The notes beneath the pieces are model-generated. The model worked only from the letters and a program-made list of their open reading frames with translations, made no database searches and had not been told where the DNA came from. A stretch of 64,000 bases of DNA from Burkholderia pyrrocinia. Lineage in GTDB: Bacteria > Pseudomonadota > Gammaproteobacteria > Burkholderiales > Burkholderiaceae. Positions 9,043-23,346 of this stretch are shown here, one piece after another. Location: assembly GCF_018417535.1 (NCBI RefSeq), contig NZ_CP070978.1, forward strand, positions 1,550,001 through 1,614,000, read 5' to 3'. The position numbers and the translations under genes are program-made. Each line of letters begins with the position of its first letter. Positions within the stretch are counted from its first letter, which is position 1.

Positions 9043-10101
9043 TCAGAACTGCGTCATCAGGCCGATCGACACACCGGTCGTCGCGCTCGCACCGCGCCGC
9101 AGGTTCAACGCCGAGATCGTCACGGGGTCGCGCATGTACGCGCCCGTCATCCCGTTGCGATCGACTTCCACATACAGTTCGGTGCGCTTCGACAGGAAGT
9201 ACTCGGCGATCGCATAGGCCGTCAGCTTGTGGCCGTCCGCGTTCCGCACGTTGCCGAGATTGCGCGCGCGGTCGTAGAACGCGGCCGCGCTCAGTTGCAC
9301 CGACGGCAGCGGCTGCACGACGACGCCGAACGACGGGATGTCATCGCGCCGCGACGGCGCACCGGCCTTGTTCGCGGTCACGTTCAGCGACGCATAGCTC
9401 AGGTAGAAGCGCGCGCGGCCGAGCTGCAGCGTGCCGCCCGTCTGGATCGTCTGTGCCGCTTGCGTTCCGTCGGGGCTGTACGTCTTCGCGTACGACACGC
9501 CGCCCATCAGGTCGGCAAACGTATACATCGCGGCGGCCGAGTAGCTCATGCCCGCGTGCGAGCTGCCCGCGACGCCGCCCGGCGAATAGCTCGCGCCGAC
9601 CCGCAGCCCGCCGGCCTGCCCGAGATACTTGATCGTGTTGTTGAAACGTGAATCGAGCGTGAAGAAGTTGCCGTCGAACAGGACGCCCGGTTCGACCGCG
9701 AGCGACTGCCCGCGACCGCCGAGCGGATCGAGTGCGATGCCGAGATCCTCGGCCGCGTTGAACTGGCGGCCGAGCGTCACGCGGCCGAAATCACCCGAAA
9801 GGCCGACATACGCGGCCTGCGAAAACAGCGTGCCCGAGGTCTTGAGCGCGCCGGTACCGCTGTTGAACGCGCCATCGAGCACGAACAGTGCCTTCAGCCC
9901 GCCGCCGAGATCCTCCTTGCCGCGAATGCCGAACTCGTTGCCGGCGATGATGTTGTTGTTGAAGCCGACCTGACTGCCGCCCGGCAAGCCGTTCACCCAG
10001 CGCACGCCGCCGCCGATCCGGCCGAACAGCGTCACGCTGGACTGCGCGTGCACGGCCCCCGAAAGCGCGCCGATCAGCGCCGCTATCATCATCCTTCTCA
10101 T
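9043..10101 (-). CDS. Outer-membrane general porin, OmpC/Gram-negative porin family
   Basis: A 352-residue trimeric-porin-type beta-barrel protein. The first 19 residues are a signal peptide ending VHA; the mature chain starts QSSVTLFGRI, as in many Burkholderia porins. The last residue is Phe, the outer-membrane sorting signal. AGGAGGGGACGC precedes the ATG. It sits 110 bases downstream of an MFS gene in the same direction; outer- and inner-membrane carriers of one substrate are often adjacent in Burkholderia catabolic loci, and the linkage suggests the porin serves the carboxylate cluster. Confidence 0.88.
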   Translation of the reverse strand: MRRMMIAALIGALSGAVHAQSSVTLFGRIGGGVRWVNGLPGGSQVGFNNNIIAGNEFGIRGKEDLGGGLKALFVLDGAFNSGTGALKTSGTLFSQAAYVGLSGDFGRVTLGRQFNAAEDLGIALDPLGGRGQSLAVEPGVLFDGNFFTLDSRFNNTIKYLGQAGGLRVGASYSPGGVAGSSHAGMSYSAAAMYTFADLMGGVSYAKTYSPDGTQAAQTIQTGGTLQLGRARFYLSYASLNVTANKAGAPSRRDDIPSFGVVVQPLPSVQLSAAAFYDRARNLGNVRNADGHKLTAYAIAEYFLSKRTELYVEVDRNGMTGAYMRDPVTISALNLRRGASATTGVSIGLMTQF

Positions 10102-19888: not shown

Positions 19889-20344
19889 ATGTCGAACGGA
19901 GAGCTCGATCGCCTGGATATCGCCATCCTCGAAGCCCTGCAGGAAAACGCGCGGATGCCGCTCTCCGAAGTGGGCCGGCAGATCGGACTGTCGCAGCCCG
20001 CGACCTCGGAGCGCGTCAAACGCCTGGAAGAGCGCGGCATCATCACGGGCTACGGCGTGCGGATCGATCCGGCGGCACTGGGGCTGGGGATGATGGCCAT
20101 CATCCGGCTGAGAACGACGCACGAACACATCAAGCCCGCGCTGAGCGCGTTCGCCGCCATGCCGCATGTGATCGAAGTCCACCGCATGACCGGCGAGGAT
20201 TGCTTCCTGCTGAAGGTACGGGTGCCGACACCGGAGCAGCTGGAAACCATCGTCGACGCGATTGCCCGCTTCGGCGCAGTCACCACTTCGCTGGTACTGC
20301 GGTCCGAGCCGGTCAAGCCACTCGGGAAAGCGCTGCTCGGTTGA
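19889..20344 (+). CDS. Lrp/AsnC-family transcriptional regulator
   Basis: A 151-residue regulator. The N-terminal helix-turn-helix (LDIAILEALQENARMPLSE, LSQPATSERVKRLEERG) is followed by the RAM effector domain (MMAIIRLRT ... IEVHRMTGEDCFLLKVRV). Length is standard. GGAG precedes the ATG. It is divergent from the RBBP9-type hydrolase. The peptide/M29-like genes begin 247 bases downstream on the same strand but appear to have their own promoter. Confidence 0.88.
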   Translation: MSNGELDRLDIAILEALQENARMPLSEVGRQIGLSQPATSERVKRLEERGIITGYGVRIDPAALGLGMMAIIRLRTTHEHIKPALSAFAAMPHVIEVHRMTGEDCFLLKVRVPTPEQLETIVDAIARFGAVTTSLVLRSEPVKPLGKALLG

Positions 20345-20459
20345 TGCGGGTAGCGGCCTCTTGCGGCGCCTGCGCGATGCGCGTGATCGGCTTCCGTTGC
20401 CGCGCCGGATCGCGCATGTCCGGTGTTTAGCACCCCTCGGCTAAAAACCTTGCAGTGCA

Positions 20460-20488
20460 TTGCCTTCATCCAATCATCAGACTAATAT
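20460..20488 (+). promoter_or_regulatory. Promoter of the small-peptide gene
   Basis: TTGCCT (20460-20465) and TAATAT (20483-20488) are spaced by exactly 17 bases, one of the best sigma-70-like pairs in the window. Transcription would begin near 20495, giving a leader of about 97 bases that contains two hairpins before the peptide's start codon. Confidence 0.55.
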
Positions 20489-20500
20489 CGACGCCACTCG

Positions 20501-20548
20501 TCCGGCATTCACGAAATGCCGGATGGGGAGCGGCACTTTCCGTGCCGC
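20501..20548 (+). promoter_or_regulatory. Two tandem hairpins in the leader of the small-peptide gene
   Basis: TCCGGCATT (20501-20509) pairs perfectly with AATGCCGGA (20515-20523) around a five-base loop. Six bases on, GCGGCAC (20530-20536) pairs with GTGCCGC (20542-20548) around TTTCC. Neither is followed by a T run. They lie between the promoter and the ribosome site, so they could be RNA structures controlling expression, or DNA operators. Confidence 0.5.
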
Positions 20549-20591
20549 GCTTTCATGTTGAATCACTCATGTTCACCACAGGAGAATTGAC

Positions 20592-20714
20592 ATGCAGGAA
20601 ACCCAGCAGATCGAATTGCTTGACTGGATGCAGGAAGACACGCACCCCGAGGCCGTCGACATGATGGTGGAGGACGCCGTGGTGCCGTTCGGCACCGCGC
20701 TCTGGCCGGTCTGA
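20592..20714 (+). CDS. 40-residue acidic peptide, candidate RiPP precursor
   Basis: A 40-codon gene starting at ATG 20592 with AGGAG seven bases upstream. The peptide has nine Asp/Glu, one His and no Lys or Arg; its first ~30 residues are acidic (ELLDWMQEDTHPEAVDMMVE) and the end is hydrophobic and aromatic (VVPFGTALWPV). An acidic leader and short hydrophobic tail, plus a hairpin and a putative metalloenzyme gene directly behind, resemble a ribosomally made, modified peptide system. No known precursor family was recognised. A plain small regulatory or enzyme-associated peptide is the alternative. Confidence 0.65.
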   Translation: MQETQQIELLDWMQEDTHPEAVDMMVEDAVVPFGTALWPV

Positions 20715-20731
20715 GCGGGCCACCCGTTCTC

Positions 20732-20755
20732 GCGGAAGGGCCGTGGCCCTTCCGC
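20732..20755 (+). terminator. Intercistronic hairpin after the peptide gene
   Basis: GCGGAAGGGC and GCCCTTCCGC form a perfect 10-base stem with a CGTG loop, 17 bases after the peptide stop and 24 before the next ATG. There is no U tract, so it may act as a partial terminator or an RNA-stabilising end. That arrangement lets a short first gene be expressed more strongly than the enzyme behind it. Confidence 0.55.
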
Positions 20756-20779
20756 CGCTTCCAGCTTCCGGAGACACGC

Positions 20780-21733
20780 ATGCTGAACCTGCACCGCGCG
20801 CTCGGCTTTCACCCCGCGCTGCGCGACAAGCTTGCGCGCGGCGATACGGGAAAACTGCTGGTCGGCCATGACATCCGCAACCGCGACATCGCGTTGCGCG
20901 CATTTGCCGCCCTGCCCGATTCGCTCGACGCGACCACCCTCTGCCTCGAAACCACCCCGCCCGCCGACATCGCCGCCGCGCTCGATCGCGCCGACCTGTT
21001 CGTGCTGCTGTACGACTCGTCGTGCCTGCCGACGCCGTCGCCGAGCGGGCCGCCGTTCCTCGCCGCGATCCGCCCCGCGATCGTCGAGCACTGGAGCAAG
21101 TCGGTTTTATTCAAGGATTACGGCCCGCATCTCGACGAGGCGTTCGCCGAATCGCTCGACGACATCGCGGCACGCAACGGCCGGCTGATCGACGCGGCCG
21201 CGCGTGCATCACGGATCCGCTTCATCGACGAAGCCGGCAACACGCTGACGGGCTCGCTCGCGCCGGACCAGAAATGGACGAGCGTGGATGGCATGGGCAA
21301 TCTCGACGTCGTGCCCGGCGAGATCGCGACGCACGTCACCGACCTGAGCGGCTCGGTCGTGTTCAGCGGCACGTTTCTCGGCACCGTGCCGTTCGCGATC
21401 AAGTACAAGGTGGCCGAGCGGCTCGCGACGCTGCGGGTCGAGAACAGCACGATCGTCGATTTCGACAGCGACGACGCGGGCTTCCGGCGCGATTTCGCGA
21501 CCTATCTCGACCGGCACGCGAATCACCGGCGGATCGAGGAATTCGGCATCGGCACGAACCTCGGGATCCGCGGGCTGTACGGCCGCAATGCAGGGTTCGA
21601 GGAACGCCACCCGGGCCTGCATCTCGGGCTCGGCGGCGGCGAAAACGGCAGCCACCACCTCGACCTGATCTTCGCGCGCGGCACGCTCGCGCTCGACGAG
21701 CGGATCGTGTTCGACGGCGCGTTCGCCGTCTGA
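20780..21733 (+). CDS. M29-like (aminopeptidase T / NicX fold) metalloenzyme
   Basis: A 317-residue protein whose C-terminal half keeps the metal-site order of the M29 aminopeptidase/NicX superfamily: E181 (VVPGEIATH), E254 (EEFGIGTNLGIR), H281 (LHLGLGGG), and H293-x-D295 (HHLDLIF). The tyrosine that follows the first His in true M29 peptidases is not evident, and the chain is shorter than the usual ~410 residues. A non-peptidase reaction, as for the dioxygenase NicX, is therefore possible. GGAG precedes the ATG. It follows the acidic peptide gene by 65 bases and is convergent with the GNAT gene, so peptide plus enzyme look like a two-gene unit. Confidence 0.65.
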   Translation: MLNLHRALGFHPALRDKLARGDTGKLLVGHDIRNRDIALRAFAALPDSLDATTLCLETTPPADIAAALDRADLFVLLYDSSCLPTPSPSGPPFLAAIRPAIVEHWSKSVLFKDYGPHLDEAFAESLDDIAARNGRLIDAAARASRIRFIDEAGNTLTGSLAPDQKWTSVDGMGNLDVVPGEIATHVTDLSGSVVFSGTFLGTVPFAIKYKVAERLATLRVENSTIVDFDSDDAGFRRDFATYLDRHANHRRIEEFGIGTNLGIRGLYGRNAGFEERHPGLHLGLGGGENGSHHLDLIFARGTLALDERIVFDGAFAV

Positions 21734-21749: not shown

Positions 21750-22259
21750 TCAGGCTTCGGCGGCCGTCGTGTCGCCGAGCCACTTGAACATCACGAGGCA
21801 GTCGACGAACCCGAGCCGCGCGTGGCGGTACGCGCGCGGCAGGCGGCCGACGATGTCGAATCCCAGCTTCTGCCACAGCGCGACCGCGACCTCGTTCGTC
21901 GCGACCACCGAGTTGAACTGCATCGCGAGAAAGCCGCGCTCGCGCGCGACCTGCTGCGAATGCTCGCACATCAGGCGGGCGACGCCGCGGCCGCGCGCGG
22001 CGTCGCTCACCATGTAGCCGCAGTTGCACACGTGATTGCCGGGCCCCGCCGCGTTCGCCTTCAGGTAGTACGAACCGAGCAACACGCCGTCCTCTTCGGC
22101 GACCCACGTGCAGAGCGGCGCATCGAGCCACAGTGCGCGCGCCGCTTCGGGCGTCGGTGCGGGATCGAATGCATAGGTTTCCTGAGCGGCGACGATGGTG
22201 CGGAAGGTCGGCCAGAAGCGCGGGAAATCGTCCTCGGTCATCGGGCGAAGCGTGATCAT
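21750..22259 (-). CDS. GNAT-family N-acetyltransferase
   Basis: A 169-residue acetyltransferase with the GNAT core: a first strand ITLRPMTEDDFP, the acetyl-CoA loop near DAARGRGVARLMCEH, and the later ATNEVAVALWQKLGFDIVG. Length is standard. The ATG at 22259 is chosen because it begins the domain; the frame remains open upstream into the regulator gene. It ends 16 bases from the convergent metalloenzyme gene. Substrate unknown; closest in style to the phosphinothricin/amino-acid acetyltransferase group. Confidence 0.78.
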   Translation of the reverse strand: MITLRPMTEDDFPRFWPTFRTIVAAQETYAFDPAPTPEAARALWLDAPLCTWVAEEDGVLLGSYYLKANAAGPGNHVCNCGYMVSDAARGRGVARLMCEHSQQVARERGFLAMQFNSVVATNEVAVALWQKLGFDIVGRLPRAYRHARLGFVDCLVMFKWLGDTTAAEA

Positions 22260-22314
22260 GCGGGTTCTCTCGTGAAGGGAATGTCGGCAGCAACGCAATC
22301 GATCGTACCGCGAT

Positions 22315-23346
22315 TCATCGATGGCTGCCGTCCCGCAGCACGCCGCTGCGATACGCGCCCGGCGGCACGCCGTACCAGCGCTTGAACGCCTGCGAGAAAC
22401 TCGACAGGTCGCTGAAGCCGAGCCGCTCGGCCACTTCCGCGAGCGACAGGCGCGCATCGCCGAGCAGCGTCTCGGCCATTGCGCCGCGCGCCTGCGCGAG
22501 CAGCGCGCGGAACGTCGTGCCTTCTTCCTGCAGCCGGCGCTTGAGCGTGCGCGGGCTCGTGTTCATCAGCCGCGCGATGTCCTCGAGCGAAAACGGCGCG
22601 GTGCCGGGCGTCGCGCTCAGGTACTGGCGCACCATCTCCGACGTCCCCACGCGCGCGCGCCGCGCTTCGACGAGTTGCCCGCACATCTGCTCGCACATCG
22701 ATACCGTCAGCGGATTCGCGTGCGGCAGCGGCCGGTCGAGAAACGCGCGGTCGAACGCGAGGCTGTTCGAGCGCGCCGAGAAAGCCGGCTCGATGCCGGC
22801 GATGTGCGGCACGACGAGCGACGAAGTACGCACGGCCTGCAGCGTGAAACGCGACAACGCGAAATCGCCGCTGGCGATTTCCTGCAGCAGCACGGCCGCG
22901 GCCGTCATGTCGCGTTCGACGAGAAACCGGCTCAGGTCGCCGTCGAGCTCCGGCGCGCCGAAACCGAGCACACCCGTGTCGTGTTCCTCGCGGTACGTGA
23001 TGACGGTGAACGCATACGTGAGCGGCAGGAAGCGCATCGCCAGCGCGAGCGCGTCGCGCCCGGTCGCGCTCGCGATCAACCCATAGCCCCACACGCCGTA
23101 CGCGGAGAAGTGGTAGCGCCGGCCGACCTCGAACCCGAGGCCCTGCGCGCGCCCGAGCGCGCGCAGCAGGTTGCCGGTCAGCCGCAGTTCCTGCGCGGCC
23201 GTCACCTCGACTTTCGGGTCGTCGAGCTGCGCGTCCCCGAGCCCCGTGCCGGCCAGCAGTTTCGCGTGCGGCACGCCGCGTTCGTCGCCGAAATCGACCA
23301 GCAGCCGGGCGCTGGCCGGACTCCGGGTGAAGTCCCAGAAGCTCAT
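22315..23346 (-). CDS. AraC-family transcriptional regulator
   Basis: A 343-residue regulator with an N-terminal arabinose-binding-type effector domain (residues ~20-210) and a C-terminal double helix-turn-helix (SLEDIARLMNTSPRTLKRRL; SLAEVAERLGFSDLSSFSQA, then FKRWYGVPPGAYR). It belongs to the OruR/ArgR-like subgroup that activates catabolic operons. It is divergent from the GMC oxidase / Baeyer-Villiger genes, with a 353-base gap, and most likely activates them. GAGGG lies nine bases before the ATG. Confidence 0.85.
   Translation of the reverse strand: MSFWDFTRSPASARLLVDFGDERGVPHAKLLAGTGLGDAQLDDPKVEVTAAQELRLTGNLLRALGRAQGLGFEVGRRYHFSAYGVWGYGLIASATGRDALALAMRFLPLTYAFTVITYREEHDTGVLGFGAPELDGDLSRFLVERDMTAAAVLLQEIASGDFALSRFTLQAVRTSSLVVPHIAGIEPAFSARSNSLAFDRAFLDRPLPHANPLTVSMCEQMCGQLVEARRARVGTSEMVRQYLSATPGTAPFSLEDIARLMNTSPRTLKRRLQEEGTTFRALLAQARGAMAETLLGDARLSLAEVAERLGFSDLSSFSQAFKRWYGVPPGAYRSGVLRDGSHR

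Follow-up and report, generated by a model that had tools for sequence, protein, structure and literature searches.

Within a 64,000-nucleotide stretch of the Burkholderia pyrrocinia genome (NZ_CP070978.1, positions 1,550,001 to 1,614,000; hereafter the window), the plus strand encodes a 40-residue, acidic, precursor-like peptide (20592-20714) and, starting 65 bases past its stop codon, a 317-residue metalloprotein (20780-21733). We found that the peptide and the metalloprotein form a conserved, near-obligate pair. We consider it probable that they are a stand-alone two-gene unit of the kind that makes ribosomally synthesized and post-translationally modified peptides (RiPPs), in which a metalloprotein with the fold of CgnB and NicX would bind and modify its own peptide. 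In the several bacterial groups that carry it, the pair probably serves as a tiny factory making a peptide product, and it tends to be overlooked by gene annotation. The metalloprotein is related to proteins, among them CgnB, that make crocagin, a compound derived from a peptide.

Comparative analyses revealed that the two genes are inherited together. Genome contigs encode 210 relatives, of which the best 80 loci were analysed. A profile of the peptide, for which some of the 80 loci supplied sequences, matches 78 of them. In one exception (L040), the peptide sits close to a contig edge, on a contig that must be a different one from the same draft assembly. In the other (L051), no peptide was found in the draft, and the contig stops at the 3' end of the enzyme gene, where two other Xenorhabdus have theirs. 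Among 65 Burkholderia genomes, 51 have the enzyme and 50 the peptide, the latter all among the former, and both or neither occur in 64 of the 65; the odd one out (G057) is 82% complete, consists of about 1100 contigs and holds only a partial enzyme. Among 199 genomes of Pseudomonas, the genus of P. fluorescens FW300-N2E3 (genome G439, locus L064), the enzyme is present in 73 and the peptide in 72, with both or neither in 198, and the odd one out (G477) carries an enzyme remnant with 28 profile positions left. An earlier note on this DNA had proposed that the enzyme binds or processes the peptide, and had named two patterns that would speak against this: a peptide that is not conserved in relatives keeping the enzyme, and an enzyme that occurs mostly without the peptide. 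These counts show neither, and the proposal was not refuted.

Four Burkholderia genomes have two enzymes and two peptides; the copies lie at different sites, and each enzyme is accompanied by a peptide of its own. The genome of the window has a single enzyme copy. Burkholderia also has a second subtype of the pair, observed in genomes G008, G018, G031, G049 and G027 (e.g., loci L083, L089 and L211). In the loci read, the peptide tail of this subtype is AVIPFATALWA, and it comes with an enzyme of the P0046 type, which groups with Vibrio and Chania proteins. G027 has the second subtype only, of enzyme and peptide alike. In a tree of 34 enzymes, whose deepest branching order is not settled and which has three flagged long branches, the protein of Paraburkholderia humisilvae (L050) joins sequences from Pseudomonas, Pendulispora and Piscirickettsia (support 100/100), and its peptide ends in AMWPF, the Pseudomonas type. 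Xenorhabdus groups with Chromobacterium, Aeromonas and one Neisseriaceae sequence (99/96), not with Photorhabdus. The peptide of Paraburkholderia rhizosphaerae (L031) ends in ALWAV, like that of Burkholderia L030. From these placements and the matching peptide endings, it seems that peptide and enzyme travel together. Similarities of the peptides and of the enzymes are correlated over the 78 loci (Spearman 0.56), a correlation that relatedness alone could also yield.

The peptide is conserved at the amino acid level. As the earlier note had read, the window peptide has nine acidic residues, no Lys or Arg and the C-terminal end VVPFGTALWPV. This end includes the invariant Thr35 and Trp38, and the 40-codon gene is preceded by a ribosome binding site, AGGAG (20580-20584, plus strand). 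The C-terminal motif [VI][VI]PFGTA[LM]W is nearly invariant in at least six genera. The tail consists of T-x-x-W and one or two further residues, and the endings vary (PV, PL, PF, P, AV, A, PH, PI). The profile matches 266 of 276 loci, many of them overlapping, which reduce to 30 distinct stretches from the first to the last conserved Trp. All 30 retain Met(-13), Thr(-3) and both Trp, and A(-9), P(-6), F(-5) and A(-2) are kept in 29 of them. The N-terminal half is likewise conserved between genera, the C-terminal tail more so. In Burkholderia, the ratio of nonsynonymous to synonymous substitution rates (dN/dS) is 0.093 for the peptide (22 distinct alleles, 226 usable pairs) versus 0.167 for the metalloprotein (325 pairs). 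This ratio and the near-identity across genera confirm that the gene is conserved and not random; together with the co-occurrence with the enzyme, they rule out a spurious open reading frame.

Constraint on the RNA was also considered. In Burkholderia (22 versions), the last codons of the peptide are less variable than the first (codon entropy averages 0.22 over the final ten and 0.50 before them), which would suggest that the core codons are constrained as RNA. This is contradicted by Pseudomonas (1.03 versus 0.78) and Photorhabdus (0.74 versus 0.25). The 80 distinct nucleotide versions of the peptide stretch in Pseudomonas show free synonymous change, with all four codons used for Thr(-3), and codons in the 11 Photorhabdus versions vary in the same manner. 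Among 5.8 billion predicted proteins, only four clusters were matched by the window peptide; therefore, the peptide is probably absent from many annotations and from the proteomics searches that rely on them. A structure model of the peptide has helices at residues 9-14 and 19-28 and a loose tail (mean predicted local distance difference test score, pLDDT, 68; predicted template modelling score, pTM, 0.26), and would be weakly compatible with a recognition part followed by a free core.

The metalloprotein gene has its own ribosome binding site, GGAG (20770-20773, plus strand), and its product was modelled with a pLDDT of 95.1. In a fold search, the predicted fold clearly matches the NicX dioxygenase, M29 aminopeptidases and CgnB/CgnE, NicX having the highest Z; no further fold stood out, an absence to which we give no weight. 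This bears out the earlier assignment to the M29/NicX superfamily. The metal ligands E181, E254, E275, H281, H293 and D295, invariant in 40 homologues, form an intact dinuclear-type site, and no Tyr is conserved from H281 to H293 in these 40, so that the protein is as it had been described, with an M29/NicX-type metal site and no catalytic Tyr. In M29 aminopeptidases, the catalytic Tyr follows the first His. AmpT, AmpS and PepS (PDB 2ayi, 1zjc and 4icr) have the same fold, but the window protein is about 80-95 residues shorter and lacks both the conserved Tyr after H281 and a significant match to Pfam Peptidase_M29, which matched one of the 40 homologues at E 0.071. Thus, a true M29 aminopeptidase is unsupported by sequence, and a distant resemblance to M29 probably explains the database name 'leucyl aminopeptidase'. 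Another family, PF26231, which would place the protein with CgnB/CgnE, has a precomputed assignment for close relatives, P0004 (93% identical) among them, and not for P0001; the Pfam scan run here gave no match to it, the presence of that model in the Pfam copy being unchecked. When the PDB was searched by sequence, the queries being the window protein, the family profile, the peptide and two distant paralogues, no convincing relative emerged, and the resemblance to CgnB/CgnE was detectable by fold only. NicX (PDB 7cup and 7cn3), a 2,5-dihydroxypyridine dioxygenase of the same fold and 15% identity, acts on a small aromatic compound, and we know of no peptide partner for it.

CgnB and CgnE of crocagin biosynthesis (PDB 6zsv and 6zsu) have the fold and the intact metal ligands in common with the window protein, at 12-16% identity. 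The ligand set E, E, E, H, H, D is the same as that of CgnB, with residues paired by order and spacing only. According to the crocagin paper, both proteins bind the precursor peptide CgnA, and neither showed aminopeptidase activity (PMC10070186). Because CgnB and CgnE share the fold and bind CgnA, this fold is established in RiPP biosynthesis, and the earlier note needs correcting where it says that this class of enzyme is not an established one for modified peptides. The same paper describes single-copy CgnB/CgnE homologues with an intact metal site, near which RiPPER found putative precursors, and about 100 genomes with homologues (PMC10070186); the subfamily described here occurs in 72 of 199 sampled Pseudomonas alone. 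The general idea of RiPPs around a CgnB/CgnE-type fold is therefore already in print (PMC10070186). As far as we searched, the novel features are the spread, the near-perfect co-inheritance, the acidic leader, the invariance of the Thr-x-x-Trp tail and the minimal two-gene form, in which CgnC is missing. A literature search for the peptide motif found no paper, although the supplements of PMC10070186, outside this search, may list such peptides among the RiPPER hits. Judged by listings, only the crocagin paper was relevant among the literature on CgnB-like, PF26231 or crocagin-like proteins, and none concerned this subfamily; PMC12710340, in the part seen, has crocagin in its reference list only.

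These comparisons suggest the following mechanism. The 40-residue peptide would be a precursor, with residues 1 to about 28 forming an acidic, helical part for recognition and the core lying within the C-terminal VVPFGTALWPV. The 317-residue protein would bind its cognate peptide, by analogy with CgnB and CgnA and judging from the co-occurrence. Its metal site may then modify the core, most plausibly at the invariant Thr-x-x-Trp; we propose this site because no CgnC is conserved nearby and because an invariant Thr stands three residues ahead of an invariant Trp. The action there could instead be an oxidation like that of NicX, or mere docking of the peptide. Removal of the leader and export would depend on proteins encoded elsewhere, and the hairpin between the two genes probably keeps the peptide message above the enzyme message.

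The unit differs from the crocagin cluster in several respects. The crocagin cluster has the CgnC oxygenase and tailoring and export genes, whereas none of these is conserved beside the pair within flanks of up to 8 kb per side. It has CgnB and CgnE together, one with a degraded metal site, whereas the genome of the window has one copy, and in the four Burkholderia genomes with two the copies lie apart. CgnA is basic and ends in Ile-Tyr-Trp, whereas the window peptide is acidic with a Thr-x-x-Trp tail. Mycofactocin and pyrroloquinoline quinone (PQQ) are peptide-derived cofactors with a precursor that is near-invariant across genera, and they are made with radical SAM and other partner enzymes. 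The peptide here resembles theirs in near-invariance across genera, but the metalloprotein is its only conserved neighbour, no search aimed at radical SAM or partner enzymes having been made.

Several points weigh against a modified precursor. Identity to CgnB/CgnE is low, and NicX and the M29 enzymes fit the model of the metalloprotein at least equally well. The flanks of the pair, up to 8 kb per side, contain no conserved gene for a protease, a transporter or a further modifying enzyme. Peptide and protein are both net acidic, so that a charge complementarity of the crocagin type is not visible in overall charge, and the peptide model is weak at the scores given above. Natural-product precursors usually have a less conserved core than the presumed core here. 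In addition, CgnB without CgnC gave no product on CgnA, CgnC being required, according to the crocagin paper (PMC10070186).

Alternatively, the peptide could be a permanent small subunit, an inhibitor or an activator of the enzyme, whose real substrate would be another molecule, with the invariant tail docked in the active-site cleft. The obligate co-occurrence would fit this equally well; conservation is higher in the tail than towards the N-terminus, as in a docking segment, no other RiPP genes are conserved nearby, and the fold match of highest Z, NicX, acts on a pyridine. We nevertheless regard this as unlikely, since the relatives with a known peptide partner, CgnB and CgnE, handle a precursor that gets modified, and since the last one or two peptide residues are variable and the peptide is predicted to fold poorly alone. 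It is also conceivable that the protein is a true M29-type peptidase, which would cleave the peptide to liberate a short signal peptide. The M29 fold, the intact metal ligands and the lack of a separate conserved protease gene beside the unit are consistent with such a role. The lack of a conserved Tyr between H281 and H293 and the failure of the Pfam M29 model argue against it, as does CgnB, which has the same ligand set and reportedly showed no aminopeptidase activity (PMC10070186), and we consider a peptidase improbable.

The position of the peptide gene bears on another alternative, that the peptide is a translated leader through which the nascent chain or the downstream hairpin controls enzyme expression in cis. 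The peptide lies upstream of the enzyme in 76 of 78 loci, its conserved C-terminus ends near Trp-Pro, and 69 of these 76 loci have a hairpin ahead of the enzyme, all of which would fit a leader. In two Xenorhabdus loci, L049 (peptide at 9147-9266) and L053 (9233-9352), the sole copy of the peptide is downstream of the enzyme gene on the same strand, with none upstream, which speaks against a mere leader or attenuator and rules out a leader-peptide attenuator as the general role. Conservation of the N-terminal half between genera and the lack of a T run after the hairpin in the window point the same way, and a cis-acting leader appears highly improbable.

If the pair is a two-gene RiPP unit, it would be among the smallest ribosomal-peptide pathways, would provide a function for many genes now named 'leucyl aminopeptidase', and would show what a CgnB-type metal site does alone, a point left open by the crocagin work. 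The near-invariance of the core across distant genera suggests a conserved job, such as a cofactor, a signal or metal handling, and not a variable weapon. Because there are two genes without conserved partners, the system is directly testable. A more specific form of this explanation, which we put forward as doubtful, is a one-enzyme RiPP maturase that needs no oxygenase partner. Water might be eliminated from the beta-hydroxyl of Thr(-3) and the dehydro-residue joined to the invariant Trp, or the Trp might be oxidized with Fe(II) and O2 in the manner of NicX. Either route would yield a conserved peptide cross-linked at Thr-x-x-Trp, or a cofactor-like molecule, common to many Pseudomonas, Burkholderia, Photorhabdus, Xenorhabdus and Chromobacterium. 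Crocagin would differ in needing CgnC to install the hydroxyl, whereas Thr(-3) has a natural beta-hydroxyl. The authors of the crocagin paper proposed that the CgnB metal catalyses elimination once CgnC has hydroxylated the Tyr beta-carbon (PMC10070186).

Upstream of the peptide gene, the window has a promoter-like element on the plus strand, TTGCCT (20460-20465) and TAATAT (20483-20488) with a 17-base spacer. The earlier note had called it a good promoter; it is conserved in an alignment of 30 Burkholderia loci, although a generic promoter scan with a threshold of 9 of 12 matches gave no site at 20460-20488. The alignment of the 30 upstream regions (15 rows printed) also shows a conserved box, TGTTTAG-N11-TAAAAAC (20424-20448, plus strand), which is possibly an UP element or operator. 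It has one exact-pattern occurrence in its own genome, and a wider regulon was rejected on this single site, no mismatches being allowed. Folding predicted two hairpins in the 5' leader, at 20497-20527 and 20530-20548 on the plus strand (minimum free energy -46 kcal/mol, z -4.17). They are real in the window, as had been claimed, but poorly conserved: at least one occurs in 28 of the 30 Burkholderia regions and two in just 11, so tandem hairpins are not a common trait.

The hairpin between the two genes, GCGGAAGGGC-CGTG-GCCCTTCCGC (20732-20755, plus strand), is conserved in place, its sequence being unrelated in other genera. An uninterrupted stem of 9-16 bp was found there in the 69 loci mentioned above, in a search that allowed G-U pairs and at most 3 as good among 100 mononucleotide shuffles per locus. 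Seven loci failed (L046, L048, L055, L064, L065, L066 and L080), some of which may have imperfect stems that this simple search cannot score. In the window, the intercistronic segment as a whole is only slightly more stable than its shuffled versions (z -1.62; 15 of 200 as good). In 15 Burkholderia sequences, 2 of 14 predicted pairs change on both sides, one of them within this hairpin. The hairpin claimed earlier is thus real, while its attenuating function was a guess, with no T run 3' of the stem in the window. Rfam gave no match at gathering score in the window, and a known RNA element was rejected.

Neighbouring genes differ by genus in the 17 loci inspected. When open reading frames of at least 90 codons in the flanks of the 80 loci were clustered, with six genus groups, the enzyme was the sole family found in all six (78 loci); the next widest cluster, response-regulator-like, covers 45 loci in three groups. 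In the window, an AsnC/Lrp-family regulator (19889-20344) lies upstream of the pair and a GNAT acetyltransferase (21750-22328, opposite strand) downstream, in clusters of 10 and 22 loci, respectively, both confined to Burkholderia. Cargo of a mobile element was rejected. No phage record matches, and in the plasmid collection two different queries matched only one set of three Burkholderia records; these measure 3.2-3.5 Mb, are typed non-mobilizable and are thus replicons of chromosome size.

Elsewhere in the class the unit is rare, with matches in 4 of 369 genomes including that of the window. The others are a full copy with a peptide (G384, L113), a broken one (G091) and a 367-residue frame that matches weakly (G111); the metalloprotein gene of G091 (L114/L116) is decayed, with internal stops. 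In the order around Xenorhabdus G440, 3 of 394 genomes match, all from the known loci L048, L051 and L053. We also observed distant paralogues of the metalloprotein in two Pseudomonas genomes (L209:9350-10534, minus strand, E 3.2e-20; L210:9001-10131, plus strand, E 2.1e-18). Directly upstream of each is an unrelated small open reading frame, the C-terminal part of which combines Thr/Ser and Trp, and these are possibly further peptide partners of the fold.
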